Below, in pieces: positions 2,879 to 34,331 of a DNA stretch of 64,000 bases. The notes beneath the pieces were generated by a model that saw only the letters and a list, made by a program, of their open reading frames with translations, made no database searches and had not been told where the DNA came from. Both the position numbers and the translations under genes were made by a program. Origin of the DNA: Haloferax marinisediminis (GTDB lineage Archaea; Halobacteriota; Halobacteria; Halobacteriales; Haloferacaceae); the NCBI RefSeq assembly GCF_009674585.1, contig NZ_WKJP01000001.1, positions 186,001-250,000 of the forward strand, written 5' to 3'. Position 1 is the stretch's first letter. Every line of letters starts with the position of its first letter.

Positions 2879-4306
2879 ATGGTGAAACTCGTCGAACGCA
2901 GAGAGAACGTCTACGAAATCGAACGAACTGGGGAGATGCACGTCCCAGCGCGAGTCTACGGGTCAGCGTCCCTCATCGAGGAGATGCTGGAAGAAGGTGA
3001 CCTCACGCTCACGCAGGTACGAAACGTCGCGACACTCCCGGGAATCCAGAAGTTCGCTCTCGTCCTCCCGGATGGACATCAGGGGTACGGATTCCCCATC
3101 GGTGGTGTCGCCGCTGTGGACCTCGACGAGGGCGTCATCAGTCCGGGAGGCATCGGGTTCGACATCAACTGCGGTGTCAGGTTGCTCCGAACGGGACTCT
3201 CGTACGGAGACATCGCTGGACAGGAAGCAATTCTCGCGGACCGTCTGTATCAGACCATCCCGACGGGACTGGGGAAGGGTGGCTATCTCCGTACAGATAT
3301 CTCAGACGTGCGTGGTATCCTCGAATCGGGGATGGAGTGGATGCTAGAGAAGGGCCACGCTACCGAGGACGACCTCGACCACTGTGAAGAAAACGGCTGC
3401 CTTCCGGGCAACCCGAACGCGGTCCCGACCGAGGCCCTCAAACGCGGTGTCAATCAGGTCGGCTCGCTCGGCTCGGGGAACCACTTCCTCGAAGTTCAGC
3501 GCGTGGGCGAGGTGTACGACCCGGAGACGGCGGCAGCATTCGGCATCGAGAGCGACGACATCGTCGTGATGATTCACTCGGGTTCTCGTGGCCTCGGCCA
3601 CCAGACGTGTTCGCACTTCATCAGAGAGTTCGAGCGGGCGTATCCGGACCTCGTCGAGTCACTCCCGGACAGACAACTCGTCTACGCTCCGCTCGGTGAC
3701 CCACTCGCCGACAAATACTGGGGGGCGATGAACGGCGCGGCCAACTTCGCGTGGGCGAACCGGCAAGCGATGACGCAGGCGGTCCGCGAGGTGTTCGGCG
3801 CACTCTTCGACGCGACAGCGGTCGAACTCGTCTACGACGTGTGCCACAATATCGCAAAAGAGGAACGCCATACCGTCCGTGGGCGGGAGAAATCGCTGCT
3901 CGTACACCGAAAAGGCGCGACACGAGCATTCCCGGCCGGACGGCCCGAAATCCCAGACGCGTACCGAAACGTCGGCCAACCCGTCTTCCTCCCCGGGAGC
4001 ATGGGCACTCACTCGTACGTCCTCGCGGGCGGCCCGCAGTCACTGGAACTCAGTTTCGGGTCGACGGCCCACGGTGCCGGTCGGCTCAAGTCGCGGACGC
4101 AGGCGAAAGGTGAGTACACCGCTGGTGAACTCCAGAAGGCGCTCCGTGCCCGTGGCATCTTCGTGCGTGCGCGGTCCGGCGGGACCCTGACCGAAGAGGC
4201 GCCCGGGGCGTACAAAGACATCGACGAAGTCGTCCGGGTCAGCGACGCACTCGGAATCGGGACCAAAGTCGCGCGGATGTCGCCGCTCGCGAACATCAAA
4301 GGGTGA
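2879..4306 (+). CDS. rtcB: RNA-splicing ligase RtcB
   Basis: A 475-residue tRNA ligase that joins 2',3'-cyclic-phosphate and 5'-OH RNA ends with GTP and manganese; in archaea it seals exons after the splicing endonuclease removes tRNA introns. Metal-binding motifs are visible: PDGHQGYGFP (residues 64-73), DINCGVR with Cys98, GSGNHFLEVQ, HSGSRGLGHQ and SMGTHSY; the guanylated histidine should be His398 in STAHGAGR. The length is normal and no intein is present. ATG at 2879 follows a purine-rich GGTGGTGAG. The substrate is close by: two intron-containing tRNA-Asn genes lie 7-8 kb downstream. Confidence 0.96.
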   Translation: MVKLVERRENVYEIERTGEMHVPARVYGSASLIEEMLEEGDLTLTQVRNVATLPGIQKFALVLPDGHQGYGFPIGGVAAVDLDEGVISPGGIGFDINCGVRLLRTGLSYGDIAGQEAILADRLYQTIPTGLGKGGYLRTDISDVRGILESGMEWMLEKGHATEDDLDHCEENGCLPGNPNAVPTEALKRGVNQVGSLGSGNHFLEVQRVGEVYDPETAAAFGIESDDIVVMIHSGSRGLGHQTCSHFIREFERAYPDLVESLPDRQLVYAPLGDPLADKYWGAMNGAANFAWANRQAMTQAVREVFGALFDATAVELVYDVCHNIAKEERHTVRGREKSLLVHRKGATRAFPAGRPEIPDAYRNVGQPVFLPGSMGTHSYVLAGGPQSLELSFGSTAHGAGRLKSRTQAKGEYTAGELQKALRARGIFVRARSGGTLTEEAPGAYKDIDEVVRVSDALGIGTKVARMSPLANIKG

Positions 4307-4417
4307 GTCTGCACCGTGCGGACGGTCCGAACGAATCGTGTGATACTCCGTGCGAGTATCAGTACGAGTGAGACACCGGGGCGTAATCATATCACCTCGG
4401 CGCCCCACTATACACCC

Positions 4418-4837
4418 ATGGAAGCTGACAGACAACTCCTCCAACAGGCCCGGACCAAACTCGACGGGTGGATTTACACGGCACGTGACAGGACGTACCG
4501 TGAACTGTTCGCCGGCGACGACGCCGTCGTCACGGCAGAGGAGCGTCAGCTTCTCGACCACATCGACGAAGAACTCGCCACCGACGGCAACGGGGGGCTC
4601 TGGGGCACCGACGAGTACGACATCGTCATGGGCCACCCGAAGAACCATCCGCTCTCGGTCGTCTGTACGCACCATCCCCAAATTCCAGTCGAGTGGTCAC
4701 GCGGCGAAGAGAGCCTGACCGAACCGGAACGAGAACAGTTCAACGACTTGCTCTGGGACTACAGTGAACGCGTCCGCCGATACGTCCAGGACGAGGTAAA
4801 CGAGTTCGTCGGCGTCGCGGGAGTCCCCGAAGAGTAG
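4418..4837 (+). CDS. Conserved haloarchaeal hypothetical protein (139 aa)
   Basis: A highly acidic, soluble 139-residue protein of a type seen in haloarchaea but without a function I can name. Recognisable stretches are QARTKLDGWIYTARDRTYRE at the N-terminus and DEYDIVMGHPKNHPLSVVCT in the middle. ATG at 4418 is the first Met before the conserved start. It lies 12 bases ahead of a small zinc-ribbon gene on the same strand, so the two are probably one transcript. Confidence 0.8.
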   Translation: MEADRQLLQQARTKLDGWIYTARDRTYRELFAGDDAVVTAEERQLLDHIDEELATDGNGGLWGTDEYDIVMGHPKNHPLSVVCTHHPQIPVEWSRGEESLTEPEREQFNDLLWDYSERVRRYVQDEVNEFVGVAGVPEE

Positions 4838-4849
4838 TACGATTCGACC

Positions 4850-5032
4850 ATGCGCGTCATCCATCCACCCGACCGGCAACCCTGTTATCAATGTGGTGAC
4901 CGCGCCGAGGTAGTTGTCGCCCGTGGACACGAGATGTGGTACAGTTGCTGGGAGTGTGCCTACCCACTTCTCGAACACGGTGGTGTCATCGTCGCGGGAG
5001 CGTTGGGCAAGGCCGTTCGAAAGCCGAAGTGA
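4850..5032 (+). CDS. Small zinc-ribbon protein (60 aa)
   Basis: A 60-residue protein with two CxxC knuckles, Cys12/Cys15 (PCYQCG) and Cys33/Cys36 (SCWECA), as in one zinc ribbon. Haloarchaea encode many such tiny zinc-finger proteins; some affect biofilm or motility, but no role can be given here. It follows the previous gene by 12 bases and is likely co-transcribed. The C-terminus is slightly basic (VRKPK), unusual for a halophile and compatible with nucleic-acid contact. Confidence 0.8.
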   Translation: MRVIHPPDRQPCYQCGDRAEVVVARGHEMWYSCWECAYPLLEHGGVIVAGALGKAVRKPK

Positions 5033-5164
5033 CCACGACTCGTCGACTCTGACCCTGTACAACCAACTCTGACAGGCTCTGCGCGGGCCGCACGTGTTCG
5101 ACCGATTCCGAGGTCGTGAGAACGAGTTACGTATTCAAGCCGGACGAGTTCTTACTGAACGTCT

Positions 5165-7945
5165 ATGGGAGATTTAGATTCGTTTGGAGCCATCCGTGAA
5201 TTCGAACACGGAGGAACTACGTACAAGATGGCGGACCTGACGGCCCTCGAAGACCAGGGCCTCTGCGAACTCGACCGTCTTCCAGTGAGTATCAGAATCC
5301 TGTTGGAGTCCGTTCTCAGAAACGTCGACGGCGACATCGTCACCGACGAAGACGTCCGAAACGCGGCGTCGTGGGAACCGGACGTCCCGAACGTCGAAGT
5401 TCCGTTCACACCGTCGCGTGTGGTGTTGCAGGACCTCACCGGCGTGCCCGCAGTCGTCGACCTCGCAGCACTTCGGTCTGCGGCGGACCGCTCGGGAAAA
5501 GACCCCAGCATCGTCGAACCCGAAGTCCCCTGTGACCTCGTCATCGACCACAGTGTACAGGTCGACTTCTTCGGGTCGCCCGACGCGTACGAGAAGAACG
5601 TCGAACTGGAGTACGAGCGCAACGCCGAGCGCTACAAGGCGCTCAAGTGGGCACAAAACGCGTTCGAGAACTTCCAGGTCGTCCCGCCGGGAACGGGTAT
5701 CGTCCACCAGGTAAACCTCGAACATCTCGGGCAGGTCGTCCACGACCGAACGTGGCGAGACGAACAGTGGCTCTTACCCGACACCCTCGTCGGAACCGAC
5801 AGTCACACGCCGATGATTGGTGGTATCGGCGTCGTCGGCTGGGGTGTCGGTGGTATCGAAGCAGAGGCTGCGATGCTCGGCCAGCCAATCACGATGAAAC
5901 TGCCCGAAGTCGTCGGCGTCCGCCTTGAAGGGACCCTTCCAGAGGGGGCGACTGCGACGGACCTCGTCCTCCACGTCACCGAGCAGCTCCGCGAAGTCGG
6001 CGTCGTCGACCGATTCGTCGAGTTCTACGGTCCCGGTGTGAAGAACCTCTCCGTGCCCGACCGGGCGACCATCTCGAACATGGCACCCGAACAGGGGTCG
6101 ACTATCAGCGTCTTCCCGGTAGACGAAGCCACGCTGGACTATCTCGAACTCACCGGCCGCGACCCAGACCACATCGAACTCGTCCGCGCCTACCTCGACG
6201 CACAGGGCCTGTTCGGCGAACAGCACCCCGAGTACACCGAGACGGTCGACGTCGACCTCTCGACGGTCGAACCGAGCCTCGCCGGGCCGAAGCGCCCACA
6301 GGACCGCATCCCGATGGGCGACATGAAGACGCACTTCCGCGGACTCGTCCACGGTGAGTTCGAACAGGAACTCGACGACTACGACGAACGTGAACTCGAA
6401 CAGTGGTTGGGCGAAGGCGGGCACACCGACGGGGGAACAACTGCTGTCGAAGCAGACGCTGACCTCCACCCGCTGACCAAGCGCGTCACCGTCGAGATGG
6501 ACGACGGCACCGAGGCCGAAATCGGCCACGGGAGCGTCGTCGTCAGCGCCATCACGAGTTGTACGAACACGTCGAACCCGTCGGTCATGGTCGCCGCAGG
6601 TATCCTCGCCCGCAACGCCATCGAGAAGGGACTCGACATGCCGAACTACGTCAAGACGAGTCTCGCACCCGGCAGTCGCGTCGTCACGGAGTACCTGAAG
6701 AAAGCCGACCTCTTGCCCTCGCTTGAGCAACTCGGCTACGACGTCGTCGGCTACGGCTGTACGACCTGTATCGGGAACGCCGGCCCGCTCCCAGAACCAA
6801 TCGAGAACGCCATCGACGAACACAACCTGTGGACGACGAGCGTCCTCAGTGGGAACCGGAACTTCGAGGCGCGTATCCACCCGAAGATTCGCGCGAACTA
6901 TCTCGCCAGCCCGCCGCTCGTCGTCGCCTACGGCCTCGCTGGCCGGATGGACATCGACCTCGAACACGACCCGCTGGGGACCGACCAGAACGGCGACCCG
7001 GTCTATCTCGCGGACATCTGGCCGGACCCAGAAGAGGTCAGACAGACGATTCACGACAGCATCGACCCCTCGATGTTCCGTGAGAAGTACGCAGAAGTGT
7101 TCGAAGGCGACGAGCGCTGGGAGGCGCTCGAAGCACCGACCGGCGACGTCTACGAGTGGGACGACGAGTCGACCTACATTCGCGAACCGCCGTTCTTCAA
7201 AGACTTCCCACTGGAAGCACCCGGCGTCTCGAACATCGAAGACGCGCGCTGTCTCCTGACGCTCGGCGACACCGTGACGACCGACCACATCAGTCCCGCC
7301 GGTCCGTTCGGTTCGAAGCTTCCGGCAGGGCAGTGGCTCATGGACCACGGCGTCGACCCCGTCGACTTCAACACCTACGGCTCTCGCCGCGGGAATCACG
7401 AGGTCATGATGCGCGGGACGTTCGCCAACGTCCGCATCGAGAACCAGATGCTCGACGACGTCGAGGGTGGGTACACCATCCACTTCCCGACCGACGAAGA
7501 GACGACCGTCTTCGAAGCGAGCCAACGCTACCGTGAAGAAGAAACGCCGCTCGTCGTCCTCTCGGGCGTCGAGTTCGGCACCGGGTCGAGTCGTGACTGG
7601 GCGGCCAAAGGAACGGACCTCCTCGGTGTGCGAGCGACTATCGCAGAGAGTTACGAGCGCATCTACCGCGACAACCTCGTCGGCATGGGCGTCCTTCCCC
7701 TCCAGTTCGAAGACGGCGACTCGTGGGGGTCGCTCGGGCTCGACGGGTCGGAACACTTCGACATCCACGGCCTCGACGACGGCCTCGAAGTCAACGACGA
7801 ACTCTCCGTCGTCGCCACGAAAGACGACGGCACAGAAATCGAGTTCGACGTGACCGCACAGGTCGGCACGCCCGCCGCCGTGAAGTACGTCGAAAACGGT
7901 GGCATCCTCCACTTCGTCCTGCGCCGTCTGCTGACGCAGGACTGA
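5165..7945 (+). CDS. acnA: Aconitate hydratase (AcnA type, 926 aa)
   Basis: Isomerises citrate to isocitrate in the TCA cycle using a [4Fe-4S] cluster. The cluster cysteines are visible: Cys466 in ITSCTNTSNPS and Cys532/Cys535 in GCTTCIGNAGPL. The substrate-binding GTDSHTPMIGGIG motif lies at about residue 210, and the mobile C-terminal domain carries DHISPAGPFG and FGTGSSRDWAAKG. At 926 residues it is the long, bacterial AcnA/IRP1-like form, not the ~650-residue type also found in archaea. ATG at 5165 is preceded by a short leader. It is a single-gene unit; citrate synthase lies elsewhere in the window (60.5 kb). Confidence 0.95.
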   Translation: MGDLDSFGAIREFEHGGTTYKMADLTALEDQGLCELDRLPVSIRILLESVLRNVDGDIVTDEDVRNAASWEPDVPNVEVPFTPSRVVLQDLTGVPAVVDLAALRSAADRSGKDPSIVEPEVPCDLVIDHSVQVDFFGSPDAYEKNVELEYERNAERYKALKWAQNAFENFQVVPPGTGIVHQVNLEHLGQVVHDRTWRDEQWLLPDTLVGTDSHTPMIGGIGVVGWGVGGIEAEAAMLGQPITMKLPEVVGVRLEGTLPEGATATDLVLHVTEQLREVGVVDRFVEFYGPGVKNLSVPDRATISNMAPEQGSTISVFPVDEATLDYLELTGRDPDHIELVRAYLDAQGLFGEQHPEYTETVDVDLSTVEPSLAGPKRPQDRIPMGDMKTHFRGLVHGEFEQELDDYDERELEQWLGEGGHTDGGTTAVEADADLHPLTKRVTVEMDDGTEAEIGHGSVVVSAITSCTNTSNPSVMVAAGILARNAIEKGLDMPNYVKTSLAPGSRVVTEYLKKADLLPSLEQLGYDVVGYGCTTCIGNAGPLPEPIENAIDEHNLWTTSVLSGNRNFEARIHPKIRANYLASPPLVVAYGLAGRMDIDLEHDPLGTDQNGDPVYLADIWPDPEEVRQTIHDSIDPSMFREKYAEVFEGDERWEALEAPTGDVYEWDDESTYIREPPFFKDFPLEAPGVSNIEDARCLLTLGDTVTTDHISPAGPFGSKLPAGQWLMDHGVDPVDFNTYGSRRGNHEVMMRGTFANVRIENQMLDDVEGGYTIHFPTDEETTVFEASQRYREEETPLVVLSGVEFGTGSSRDWAAKGTDLLGVRATIAESYERIYRDNLVGMGVLPLQFEDGDSWGSLGLDGSEHFDIHGLDDGLEVNDELSVVATKDDGTEIEFDVTAQVGTPAAVKYVENGGILHFVLRRLLTQD

Positions 7946-25324: not shown

Positions 25325-25367
25325 GCGAACGCAGTGAGCGACTGAGGTTCGAATCCGCCCGAGCCCA
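25325..25367 (+). repeat. tRNA-tail relic A (tRNA-Val 3' end copy plus spacer core)
   Basis: Bases 25346-25367 repeat exactly the last 22 bases of tRNA-Val (25242-25263). Before them lies the core GCGAACGCAGTGAGCG (25325-25340), one base different from the core of the other relics, preceded by TTCGAATCAGGGA as in relic E. The similarity to the tRNA continues leftward through CTGAGG with a seven-base deletion. A duplicated tRNA 3' end is the usual footprint of integrase-mediated insertion. Confidence 0.85.
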
Positions 25368-26792: not shown

Positions 26793-26870
26793 TTCTGAAC
26801 CAGACGAGTCGCAGCGTTCGAGCGAAGCGAGAACGACCGTCTCGGCGAGGTTCAAATCCGGGAAGTGGCA
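26793..26870 (+). repeat. tRNA-tail relic B (after tRNA-Phe copy 1)
   Basis: Bases 26849-26870 copy the last 22 bases of tRNA-Phe with two changes, 144 bases downstream of the original. A 21-base block at 26793-26813 (begins TTCTGAACCAGACGAG) recurs exactly at 32304-32324 in relic C. Between them is GAGCGAAGCGAG instead of the core seen at the other sites. Confidence 0.82.
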
Positions 26871-27175: not shown

Positions 27176-28534
27176 ATGACAGAACCCTCGAGACCTAGTG
27201 GCCGGTTGCCGCTAGACAGACGGTCTGCGCTGAAATTGACTGGTGGGTTCCTCCTCGCGAGTGCGCTCGGTGGACAGGTTGGAGCAGTTCACGCGCTCGA
27301 TGGAACACAGCAAGTATACCGTGTCAAGCAAGGCTCCCGCGAGTTCGAAATCACTCTCCTCGAGGGTGATACACCCGTCAGAGAGCTCTACGACCTTCGG
27401 ATTCCAGACGCGTACGGTGGCGACAACGGTGCGACGGACCCCGGAGAAGGGCCGTACTACGAGTCACTGGGGCTCAAATACCTGCTAGAAGCGCAAGAAT
27501 CGGTGATGTTCCTCTACCACGGGCCAGATGGGGTCAGTCTCGTCGCACTCCATGGCGGTCCGGGTGACGGGACAGCAGTCACGTGGCGGGTTACTGGCGT
27601 GCCCTCCGGTGCAAAGTGGCTGGTGAAAGACGACCTGTACACCTACCCAGAGACGGGAGAGCCAGCGGTGTCGAACTACGACCAGTGGAACGTGAGCGGA
27701 AGCCAGCACGTCATCGATTGGACGTGGGCTGGTGGCCGAACAGACGGTGGCGTTCTCGGCTATCTCAACGGCGACTTCTCGATTACCATCGACCCAGCGT
27801 ACAACACCGCTGCAACACTCTACGGAGAGTATTTTGCCGGCGTAATCGCCGGGTGGTACGTCCTCACCGGTAGTTGGGGTAATCTGACGCGCGAGGAGTT
27901 GAACCTCCAAGAACCAGTGACGATTAGCTGCGAGACGATCCAGGAGCCAGAAGTGCCTGGGACGCCGCAGGAGGAGACTCCAGAAGAGACTCCCACAGAA
28001 ACCCCTGAAGAAGAGACTCCTGAAGAAACACCAGAAGAGTCGCCCGAAGAATCTCCTGCGGAAGAGACTCCCACAGAAACCCCTGAAGAGAAGAAGTCGA
28101 ACGAGAAGAAGAAGAAAAAGAACAAAGAAGAGAAGGAGAAGCCGGAGTGGAAGGAAGACCGCGACGAGGCACGTGAAGAGTGGAAAGAAGACCGAGACGA
28201 GTGGCAGAAAAAACGCGACAACGGGGACGACGACTGGAAAGAAGCCCGCGACGAAGCACGAGAAGAGCGGAAAGAAAAGCGTGACAAGTGGCAGGACAAG
28301 CGGGACAAAGAAAAGGAGAAAGAGAGGAAAAAGCGAGAAAAAGAGAAAGAGAAGGAGAAGAAGAAGCGGGAGAAGGAGAAAGAGAAGGAGAGAAAAAAGC
28401 GAGAGAAGAAGAAAAAGAAGGAGAGGAAAAAGAAGCGAAACAGGGGCGACGACCGCGAGTGGGATGATGACGACGACGACGATGACGACGACCGCGAGTG
28501 GGATGACGACGACGACGATGACGACGACGACTGA
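27176..28534 (+). CDS. Tat-exported protein with extreme charged low-complexity tail
   Basis: A 452-residue protein. A Tat signal (DRRSALKLTGGFLLASALGG) precedes a folded-looking domain of about 220 residues (YRVKQGSREFEITLLEGD, ALHGGPGDGTAVTWRVTGVP, YFAGVIAGWYVLTGSWGNL) that I cannot assign. From about residue 262 come Glu/Thr/Pro repeats (ETPEETPTETPEE), with a 29-base direct DNA repeat at 27983-28011 and 28061-28089; then about 115 residues of almost only Lys, Glu, Arg and Asp; and finally two REW motifs each followed by ten aspartates. Polyaspartate could bind calcium; the tail resembles a stalk or wall-interacting region. It lies directly before the halolysin gene. Confidence 0.85.
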   Translation: MTEPSRPSGRLPLDRRSALKLTGGFLLASALGGQVGAVHALDGTQQVYRVKQGSREFEITLLEGDTPVRELYDLRIPDAYGGDNGATDPGEGPYYESLGLKYLLEAQESVMFLYHGPDGVSLVALHGGPGDGTAVTWRVTGVPSGAKWLVKDDLYTYPETGEPAVSNYDQWNVSGSQHVIDWTWAGGRTDGGVLGYLNGDFSITIDPAYNTAATLYGEYFAGVIAGWYVLTGSWGNLTREELNLQEPVTISCETIQEPEVPGTPQEETPEETPTETPEEETPEETPEESPEESPAEETPTETPEEKKSNEKKKKKNKEEKEKPEWKEDRDEAREEWKEDRDEWQKKRDNGDDDWKEARDEAREERKEKRDKWQDKRDKEKEKERKKREKEKEKEKKKREKEKEKERKKREKKKKKERKKKRNRGDDREWDDDDDDDDDDREWDDDDDDDDDD

Positions 28535-30527: not shown

Positions 30528-30656
30528 GGCCCCCGGTCGAGGGCGCTACAGGAGCGTTCTCAGCCGACACGCCACAGCGCGAGATGTCCACCAACAGGAC
30601 GTTCACCTTTCCCCTTCACAAGACTTATACGTGCAACGCGGTTGAATCCAAAGGCA

Positions 30657-30851
30657 ATGGCGAAAGGTAAGGTTGATTTCTTCAACGACACTGGCGGTTA
30701 CGGTTTCATCTCTACTGACGACGCGGACGACGACGTGTTCTTCCACATGGAAGACGTTGGCGGCCCGGACCTCGAAGAGGGTCAGGAAATCGAATTCGAC
30801 ATCGAACAGGCCCCCAAGGGTCCCCGCGCGACGAACGTCACCCGCCTCTAA
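30657..30851 (+). CDS. Cold-shock domain protein, copy 1
   Basis: A 64-residue CspA-type protein with one OB fold; the RNA-binding motifs appear as GYGFIS and DVFFHME. It is expected to bind single-stranded RNA or DNA. TATA-like CTTATACG lies about 35 bases upstream. A second gene 164 bases further on is about 94 percent identical in DNA, and the ten bases AAAGGCAATG around the start are shared. Confidence 0.95.
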   Translation: MAKGKVDFFNDTGGYGFISTDDADDDVFFHMEDVGGPDLEEGQEIEFDIEQAPKGPRATNVTRL

Positions 30852-31014
30852 GCAGGTTTTCGTTCAACGCCGGTAACTTCACACACTGACGAACTTTCTT
30901 CCGTTTTTCACCCACCGACAGCGGGCGCGCTGTGTCGCGCAGTCTCGCGGTTATCCGAACTCAGTTGAGGTATGCGGAAGGGTTAACCGTCCACAGCATC
31001 GTTATACAAAGGCA

Positions 31015-31209
31015 ATGGCGAAAGGTAAAGTTGATTTCTTCAACGACACTGGCGGTTACGGTTTCATTTCTACTGACGACGCGGACGACGACGTGTTCTT
31101 CCACATGGAAGACGTTGGCGGCCCGGACCTCGAAGAGGGACAGGAAGTCGAATTCGACATCGAAGACGCCCCGAAGGGCCCGCGCGCGACGAACGTCAAG
31201 CGCCTCTAA
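31015..31209 (+). CDS. Cold-shock domain protein, copy 2
   Basis: A 64-residue paralogue of the preceding gene, differing at 11 of 195 bases and at three residues (Val for Ile, Asp for Gln, Lys for Thr), all in the C-terminal half. The first ~120 bases differ at only two sites. It has its own short upstream region (GTTATAC). Confidence 0.95.
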   Translation: MAKGKVDFFNDTGGYGFISTDDADDDVFFHMEDVGGPDLEEGQEVEFDIEDAPKGPRATNVKRL

Positions 31210-32238: not shown

Positions 32239-32303
32239 CTTCTCTGAACCCGACCACCGAGCGAAGCGAGCGTGGCGGGTTCTGAACGTGCGACTTGAGC
32301 GGA

Positions 32304-32378
32304 TTCTGAACCAGACGAGTCGCAACCGCGAACGGAGTGAGCGGTCCGTCTCGACTCGGTTCAAATCCGAGAGGCAGA
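32304..32378 (+). repeat. tRNA-tail relic C (left repeat of the peroxiredoxin cassette)
   Basis: Contains the 21-base block shared with relic B (32304-32324), the core GCGAACGGAGTGAGCG (32328-32343) and a degenerate tRNA-Phe 3' end (32358-32378, 18 of 21 matching). Its 48 bases at 32316-32363 recur exactly at 33143-33190. Confidence 0.88.
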
Positions 32379-32469
32379 GGACGCTGTTTACTCGTCGGAC
32401 GCATCCAAACTAGAGAGACGGAATACCCGTGGGAACAATTAACATGGATGCTAGCGTACGTGTAATGTT

Positions 32470-33138
32470 ATGCAGAGTGCTGACGAGAACGTCGAGGCGC
32501 TGGTGACGAAGGCAGAAGCCGAGTGGATGAAGCGATACGAAACGGGCCCGTCGCGCCTCCGATGGACCGAACTCCCGGTGCAGGTTGGCGACGACGCGCC
32601 GGACGCCGAACTGGCAGACTTGAATGGAGAGATGCGGTCACTGAGTGGGTTCTGGGCCGAACAACCGACAATCGTGATGTTCTGGCGGCACTTCGGGTGT
32701 AACTGCGGAATCGAACGTGCAGAGCGATTAGCAACGGAGTACGGCGACTACCGCGACGCGGGCGCGGAAGTGGTCGTAGTGACGCAAGCCGAGCCTGCAC
32801 GGTCGGCCGAGTACGCCGAACGACGTGGCATCGAGTGTCCCGTCCTCTGTGACCCGGGACGAGAGACGTACGACGCGTTCGGACTGTTGGATTACGACCT
32901 CCCGCAAGTGTTCCAAGGCGCACCCGACGAGTTCCTCGCGCTGGACCCCGAGGCGGGCGCTGGCTTAGCCGCCGACCGGCGTGAGATGGGACAGAATATG
33001 GTCGACAACCCGTGGCAACAGGCAGGCGAATTCCTCGTCGATACGGACGGTCACATTCAGGTGAGCCACCGGTACCAGTACTGCGAGGACTACCCCGACC
33101 CGGGCGTCTTCCTGACTGCGCTTCGGATGCTCGAGTGA
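32470..33138 (+). CDS. Peroxiredoxin-like (AhpC/TSA-type) protein
   Basis: A 222-residue thioredoxin-fold protein. The N-terminal half matches AhpC/TSA-like proteins: VGDDAPDAELADLNGEM, then PTIVMFWRHFGCNCGIERAE, where the usual peroxidatic-Cys region has a CxC (GCNCG), followed by EVVVVTQAEPARSAEY and IECPVLCDPGRETYDAFGL. It probably reduces peroxides or acts in disulfide exchange; the CxC makes it atypical. The gene stands alone between two 48-bp direct repeats derived from tRNA-Phe, which suggests acquisition as a cassette. Confidence 0.8.
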   Translation: MQSADENVEALVTKAEAEWMKRYETGPSRLRWTELPVQVGDDAPDAELADLNGEMRSLSGFWAEQPTIVMFWRHFGCNCGIERAERLATEYGDYRDAGAEVVVVTQAEPARSAEYAERRGIECPVLCDPGRETYDAFGLLDYDLPQVFQGAPDEFLALDPEAGAGLAADRREMGQNMVDNPWQQAGEFLVDTDGHIQVSHRYQYCEDYPDPGVFLTALRMLE

Positions 33139-33142
33139 ACGG

Positions 33143-33206
33143 CGAGTCGCAACCGCGAACGGAGTGAGCGGTCCGTCTCGACTCGGTTCACATCCAGGAG
33201 ACAGCA
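33143..33206 (+). repeat. tRNA-tail relic D (orphan, right repeat of the cassette)
   Basis: Starts four bases after the peroxiredoxin-like stop codon. Bases 33143-33190 equal 32316-32363 exactly (48 of 48), including the core at 33155-33170. Bases 33185-33206 match the tRNA-Phe 3' end at 18 of 22 positions, yet no tRNA gene is attached. Confidence 0.88.
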
Positions 33207-33329: not shown

Positions 33330-34331
33330 ATGGAAATACAAGAACTCACACTCGACGAGTGGGCAGCCGTCGCTGAGAGGAAACGCCTCGGTGTGTTTCA
33401 TATGCCCGACGTACTGTCCGTTATCGACGACCACACTGATGCGGAGATGCGCCTCCTCGGAGGGTTCGATGGCAAACAACTGGTCGGGATGCTTCCGCTC
33501 TTCTTGCACAAGTATCCGGGGGTACGACTCGCACTTTCTCCCCCACCGGCAGTGAACATGTCGCGGATGGGGCCAGTCGTGATGATAAATAGCCCCAAGC
33601 TCCGGAAGCAAGAACGCCTCAATCAGGAATTCACTGAAGCGGTCCTGAACGAACTCGACCGCTACAAAGGAATCATGCTGTACTACATGATTCTCGACAC
33701 GACGTACACCGACCCACGGCCGTACCGATGGGCTGGATTCAGATTCGAACCGCGGTATACCTATCAGCTCGATTTGCGAGACAGGGGCGCCGACGAGGTC
33801 ATAGCTGGGTTCTCACGCAACCTCCGTTGGGAAATCCAAAACTTCGACGACCATTCGGTTGAGGTATCTCTCGGTGGGGTTGGTGACGCTCTTCGAGTCT
33901 ACGACGACACGAAAGCGCGATTCGCTGAACAGGGAGCAAAATTCCCGGTTTCGCGGGCGTTCACACGTGACCTCATTTCGACGCTCGACGACTCCGCCCG
34001 AGTCTACACCGCCACAGGCCCAGACGGCGAGTACCTCGGAGGAATCACGGTTCTGTACTCCGATACGACGGCCTACTTCTGGCTCGGTGGCACACGGGCG
34101 AACTACCAAAACCAGAGTGTCAACAGTTTCCTCCACTGGCAGATAATTCAGGACATCCTCTCTGACCCCACGCTCGAGAGCGTCGAACGGTACGACCTCG
34201 GAAGGGCTGCAGTCAAGCGACTCGGCCGGTACAAGAGCAAGTTCAATCCAGAACTCGTTCCCTACTACGAGATCAAATCGAGCAGGCTCATCGACCTCGC
34301 CAAAGAGGCCTATAAACTCGTCTCGTACTGA
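33330..34331 (+). CDS. FemAB/GNAT-like acyltransferase
   Basis: A 333-residue protein with the double-GNAT layout of FemAB/BioF2-like transferases: LGVFHMPDVLSVIDDHTDAE and LVGMLPLFLHKYPGVRLALS in the first half; a second half with YQLDLRDRGADEVIAGFSRN, LGGITVLYSDTTAYFWLGGT and VERYDLGRAAVKRLGRYKSK. Relatives transfer amino acids or acyl groups to cell-envelope or lipid-linked substrates; the substrate here is unknown. ATG at 33330 starts the conserved domain. The 5' part has lower GC than core genes, in line with an accessory origin next to the cassette. Confidence 0.8.
   Translation: MEIQELTLDEWAAVAERKRLGVFHMPDVLSVIDDHTDAEMRLLGGFDGKQLVGMLPLFLHKYPGVRLALSPPPAVNMSRMGPVVMINSPKLRKQERLNQEFTEAVLNELDRYKGIMLYYMILDTTYTDPRPYRWAGFRFEPRYTYQLDLRDRGADEVIAGFSRNLRWEIQNFDDHSVEVSLGGVGDALRVYDDTKARFAEQGAKFPVSRAFTRDLISTLDDSARVYTATGPDGEYLGGITVLYSDTTAYFWLGGTRANYQNQSVNSFLHWQIIQDILSDPTLESVERYDLGRAAVKRLGRYKSKFNPELVPYYEIKSSRLIDLAKEAYKLVSY

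Follow-up and report, generated by a model that had tools for sequence, protein, structure and literature searches.

The window analysed here is a 64,000-nucleotide stretch of the Haloferax marinisediminis genome (contig NZ_WKJP01000001.1, positions 186,001 to 250,000, forward strand) in which a peroxiredoxin-like (Prx-like) gene lies between two exact 48-bp direct repeats downstream of a tRNA-Phe gene. Sequence comparison indicates that these repeats are the distal halves of widespread non-coding units that exist without any gene, and are not ordinary attachment sites. We give an even chance to the reading in which incoming DNA, bearing the Prx gene together with half of a unit, underwent recombination with the unit already in place, leaving the hairpin now seen on each side. 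The unit was probably present before the gene was inserted, since tail-ending units follow many tRNA genes with nothing inserted. The cassette shows that a gene can come to sit between two such units, and we judge the widespread unit family to be of more interest than the inserted gene itself.

Repeat pair and organization of the locus

The 48-mer CGAGTCGCAACCGCGAACGGAGTGAGCGGTCCGTCTCGACTCGGTTCA occurs twice, with a start-to-start distance of 827 bp (Table 1). When the pair is stretched to 62 nt the copies remain 94% identical, and the best other match to the 62-mer in the entire 3.49-Mb genome covers only part of it, at ~76% identity and an E-value of 0.016; the pair is therefore unique and not a product of chance. 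Each repeat leads into a degenerate version of the tRNA-Phe 3′ tail, with 4 mismatches in 22 positions in both cases. No tail match at ≤5 mismatches occurs in 577 kb of control sequence taken from this chromosome at a distance from its tRNA genes. The exact repeat is mostly a hairpin and reaches just six bases, GGTTCA, into the tail; beyond the 48 bp the left and right tails differ at 4 of 14 positions. The left copy sits inside a complete two-hairpin unit that begins directly after the tRNA and ends in the tRNA's own tail. The right copy is the second half of a unit only: it has no hairpin I, and its hairpin II lacks the 5′ arm. The Prx-like gene ends at 33138, 4 bp ahead of the right repeat. 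A preliminary description of this DNA, made from the sequence alone, had reported the identical repeats, their passage into degenerate tRNA-Phe tails and the single gene closely abutting the right copy, and had remarked that the copied unit is larger than a simple attachment core; we find all of these points to be correct. Scans for sigma-70 promoters and terminators, which are ill-suited to archaea, returned nothing.

Table 1. Positions of the repeats, units and genes at the tRNA-Phe locus and of related tail copies in the window
Feature	Coordinates	Strand	Basis
tRNA-Phe (GAA), second of two in the genome	32165..32238	+	
Complete tRNA-tail unit, directly 3′ of tRNA-Phe	32239..32379	+	
Hairpin I of the unit, GAACCCG...CGGGTTC	32246..32282	+	Fold
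Hairpin II of the unit, closed by inverted and direct T-arm copies	32300..32369	+	Fold; unit family
Left 48-bp exact repeat (hairpin module plus GGTTCA)	32316..32363	+	
Left degenerate tail copy (4 mismatches in 22), 119 bp past tRNA-Phe	32358..32379	+	
Putative 827-bp insert, one repeat period; edges can slide within the repeat	32364..33190	+	
AT-rich CAATTAACATGG, 22–33 bp 5′ of the start codon, possible archaeal TATA region	32437..32448	+	Inferred from sequence only
AhpC/TSA, SelL-related redox protein gene (222 aa)	32470..33138	+	
Right 48-bp exact repeat	33143..33190	+	
Right degenerate tail copy (4 mismatches in 22), then apparent start of a further unit (TACTTCTGCGAACC)	33185..33206	+	
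Unit tail copy after the first tRNA-Phe (2 mismatches in 22)	26849..26870	+	
Unit tail copy after tRNA-Val (TAC), exact	25346..25367	+	

Architecture and distribution of the tRNA-tail units

The unit is a non-coding segment, mostly ~80–150 bp in length, and one or more are located directly 3′ of many haloarchaeal tRNA genes. It is composed of a T-rich start at the tRNA 3′ end, followed by hairpin I and hairpin II. Hairpin II has the T-arm and acceptor tail of its own tRNA as the 3′ arm and an imperfect inverted copy of them as the 5′ arm, and the unit ends in a copy of the last ~22 bases of the cognate tRNA. Across the 24 units compared, the inverted arm scores a mean of 20.2 against its own tail and 14.1 against the tails of other tRNAs. 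Individual units are not all distinctive in this respect; for the unit of the window's tRNA-Phe, 13 of 45 other tails score equally well or higher.

Roughly every second tRNA gene in two haloarchaea from different families is followed by a structured unit of this kind. Searching the 320 bp downstream for tail copies with ≤7 mismatches in 22 gives hits for 24 of the 51 tRNA genes in H. marinisediminis and for 17 of 29 in genome G109, from another family, where seven copies are exact. None of the 54 tRNA genes sampled from the same phylum outside the class has one, and upstream of the tRNA genes no tail copy with fewer than 9 mismatches occurs in either H. marinisediminis or G109. A scan of 9.5 kb at 52 tRNA genes of H. 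marinisediminis places the copies at ≤5 mismatches 78–238 bp downstream; the right repeat of the Prx cassette, at +946, is the sole farther copy that the neighbouring tRNA-Phe locus leaves unexplained. Gene cassettes between tails are not general, the Prx case being alone within that range. In other genera, tRNA-Phe is followed by a significant tail copy at 20 of 35 loci, representing 8 of 13 families. All except one of the arrays listed for tRNA-Phe and tRNA-Val within the genus hold at least one copy, and the arrays vary among species in both the number of units and the combination of modules. Units after tRNA-Phe in G109 (L168) retain a recognisable degenerate anticodon arm (TTGAAGATCGAGTTGTCCCCG), as do those in G021 (L177), which suggests from the retained sequence that the units began as tandem tRNA copies. 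A search of the open-access literature, with subscription journals outside its reach, found no description of the units, of their cognate inverted arms or of their class-wide spread.

Tail likeness to the tRNA falls with distance along the arrays in 17 steps and rises in 3 (sign test p = 0.0013, a value that is optimistic because the arrays of related species share history). This trend is as expected if new units enter beside the tRNA, and would also follow from conversion from the tRNA that weakens along the array. One hairpin module can occur with different tRNA tails. A plasmid search with the window's tRNA-Phe unit identified a unit behind tRNA-Val (CAC) on Natronorubrum bangense plasmid NZ_CP031306 (L301:2859-3077), in which the same CAGACGAGTCGC...CGTCTCGG hairpin is joined to a Val tail.

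The units may determine where foreign DNA lands, sparing the tRNA or diverting attack, or may act in tRNA maturation. In a further reading, which treats the gene insertion as incidental, the units have a role at the RNA level as structured trailers of the tRNA, with termination or processing as examples of what they might affect; this is tentative and rather less probable than the crossover considered below, with which it is compatible. GA-rich hairpin modules behind tRNA genes all lie on the tRNA-sense strand, as this role would have it, although a mobile element inserting in a fixed direction would give the same strand bias, and such modules also occur elsewhere. The stems contain paired changes: in a hand-picked alignment of 12 hairpins, 90.9% of cells are paired compared with 85.5% after shuffling, and there are 10 double-change cells compared with 3.5, neither value being reached in 500 shuffles, with the qualification that the structure was derived from these same sequences and is thereby favoured in the comparison with slid versions. 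Speaking against an RNA-level role, the T-rich unit start may end transcription ahead of the hairpins, about one tRNA gene in two lacks a unit, and unit number differs from species to species.

The Prx-like gene and the locus in congeners

The Prx-like protein passes the Pfam thresholds for PF00578 (62.2 bits, cut-off 26) and PF13911 (45.6 bits, cut-off 27). It scores 85.2 bits against the SelL-related redox protein model NF040769, under the NCBIfam cut-off of 120. The protein belongs to the AhpC/TSA group and is closest to the SelL-related redox proteins, yet below the cut-off of that family. The gene is missing in all 14 congeners. Of 391 genomes searched in the class, its own and just three more have a Prx-like gene; the three belong to one distant genus, of another family, and share 47–54% identity. 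The remaining relatives, from a scan that detects only close ones, are bacterial. From this distribution, the gene was probably acquired horizontally. Inspection of 3.6 kb around the three haloarchaeal relatives, with ARAGORN on two loci and by eye, for the flanks only, on the third, showed no tRNA gene or tail unit. Plasmid-borne relatives were considered as a source and set aside, being distant bacterial proteins (25–32% identity) that do not reveal one. Phage records contain no match to the cassette, and viral contigs contain no exact copy of the 22-nt tRNA-Phe tail.

The tRNA-Phe gene is also present twice in all 14 congeners, the second copy being preceded by a DUF2270 gene. Outside the genus there is mostly one full tRNA-Phe match per genome searched, with G031 as an exception. 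All 14 congeners retain DUF2270 and tRNA-Phe, at least one tail unit and, further downstream, the helix-turn-helix (HTH), DmsR-like and pyridoxamine-oxidase-like genes, but have no Prx gene there. The preliminary description had named constant neighbours in all relatives as the result that would speak against an insert; instead, the gene is missing from a conserved site in all 14 congeners. It had also called for a comparison with empty sites, and G010 provides one, with a single near-identical hairpin and no gene. Removing the 827-bp period in silico leaves the hairpin, the right tail and the start of another unit, and the resulting sequence aligns through into the next unit of G010. Insertion is likely because this excision gives an array like that of G010. 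The earlier proposal of a cassette between attachment-like sites thus finds support as far as an extra single-gene insert at tRNA-Phe is concerned; the idea that the repeats are attachment sites made by integration of the gene does not, as the units are widespread without an insert.

A gene for a GNAT/FemAB-like acetyltransferase (33330-34331) adjoins the cassette and is also missing at this position in 14 of 14 congeners. A tail-like stretch after it, containing a 12-nt perfect inverted repeat (34360-34371/34418-34429), is weak, with 9 of 474 control windows scoring equally, and was rejected as a candidate.

Congener G012 contains a 2.1-kb insert (L055 ~3243-5363) with small open reading frames and a GC content of 0.47, compared with 0.58 in the flank. 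It is bordered by a unit tail on one side and by a 19-bp copy of the tRNA-Phe tail on the other, and forms another instance of foreign-looking DNA enclosed by tail copies. In G108 (L202), ~9.6 kb separates tRNA-Phe from an exact tail copy, and a second tail copy, a degenerate one, lies 104 bp further on. Some tail-like sequences in G032 and G098, located a long way 3′ of tRNA-Phe, are chance-like, with no shared repeats and ordinary genes between, and were discarded.

Proposed origin of the cassette

In the scheme to which we give an even chance, the gene would come horizontally on a circular DNA or on a fragment of an array from another cell, in either case with a single hairpin II half on it. 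One crossover within this half would add 827 bp and leave a hairpin on either side. The crossover could occur by homologous recombination over the 48 bp, or through a tyrosine recombinase that reads the tail or the hairpin; homologous recombination over the hairpin would suffice for the insertion. A single crossover fits the locus because such an event leaves identical repeats whose outer flanks differ. The insert could be tolerated because it would lie beyond the tRNA and bring its own upstream region, and the outcome would resemble a one-gene cassette captured at a hairpin site.

Several observations weigh against this scheme. No integrase is present among the neighbouring genes examined, the nearest tyrosine-recombinase match on the contig being ~196 kb away (the genome has eight PF00589 matches), and neither a circular form nor a second strain was seen. 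The alignment to G010 past the repeat is modest, with 6 of 240 random 60-mers scoring as well, and none of the three haloarchaeal Prx relatives lies in such a cassette. The acetyltransferase gene is likewise extra here and has no clear repeats, so the region may simply collect DNA. Finally, because the tails diverge past the 48 bp, the repeat may have been evened by gene conversion.

The chief competitor of the single crossover is an insertion by some unrelated event followed by gene conversion. The gene would have landed in or beyond the array separately, and the hairpin II halves would have been made identical later by unequal crossing-over or conversion during array amplification. We think this the poorer explanation, with perhaps half the claim of the crossover. 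Units are duplicated, and G002 and G003 contain hybrids that join halves of different units; in G012, the two tRNA-Phe copies and their first units are nearly identical, as conversion predicts. The exact identity in the window also ends inside the tail, where the copies diverge. Such a process sits less well with a right copy that lacks hairpin I and the hairpin II 5′ arm and so is no whole unit, and a boundary four bases past the stop codon suits the discrete edge of an insert.

It is improbable that the cassette is the remnant of an integrated plasmid or virus whose tyrosine integrase used the tRNA-Phe tail and from which all but one gene was later deleted: the tail-bounded stretches in G108 and G012 fit such elements, but the insert starts past a unit and not at the tRNA, its repeat is chiefly hairpin with little tail, no integrase or viral gene turned up among the neighbouring genes, and phage records lack a match.

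Comparison with known systems

Archaeal integrases favour tRNA 3′ ends (PMC8371274). Archaeal tRNA-targeted integrative elements (SNJ2, SSV, pNOB8 and related integrases) resemble the present locus in having a tRNA 3′ tail copy at the far side of the inserted DNA. Here, however, nearly half of the tRNA genes have a tail copy no more than ~240 bp away, the enclosed sequence contains hairpins and no integrase, and the repeat at the Prx gene is mostly hairpin. Such an element abuts an intact tRNA and encodes or adjoins its integrase, whereas a complete hairpin unit separates tRNA-Phe from the insert in H. marinisediminis and tyrosine-recombinase matches on the contig are at least ~196 kb distant.

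The likeness to integron cassettes (attC; archaeal integrons, PMC9668308) lies in a single gene followed by an imperfect palindromic hairpin and bracketed by two of them; as in an integron array, the same palindromic site, here the hairpin II half, is found on both sides of the gene. The locus differs in containing one gene only and in a hairpin that bears the cognate tRNA tail. No IntI turned up nearby, although no search was aimed at it, and searching the text of PMC9668308 turned up neither 'Halobacter' nor 'haloarchaea'. A bolder proposal, which we regard as a long shot, is a class-wide, tRNA-anchored system in haloarchaea: units copying the cognate tail in direct and inverted form would be added beside the tRNA through some recombinase, would swap modules between tRNA genes and species, and would sometimes capture a whole gene, with an integron-like outcome based on the tRNA 3′ end.

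The transposase-free mobile repeats of Haloquadratum (MITE, PATE and SMR) are also short, non-coding and palindromic repeats of a haloarchaeon. They are described as distributed fairly evenly round the chromosome (PMC3119063), whereas the units at issue here are tied to tRNA 3′ ends, with sequence matching that of the cognate tRNA. Partial tRNAs, several of which directly adjoin a full copy, are reported for Haloferax gibbonsii LR2-5 (PMC7921747); the portion of that report available to us does not describe hairpins, arrays or a class-wide occurrence.

Other features of the window

Upstream of the DUF2270 gene, two tandem cold-shock-like genes (30646-30851 and 31004-31209) are 94% identical over 206 bp, and nucleotide comparison suggests that most congeners also have two copies. 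The gene at 27176-28534 encodes a protein with a long, low-complexity charged C-terminus, in which KEK/ERK runs are followed by poly-Asp. It matches no Pfam family, and relatives are present in G013 and G010.
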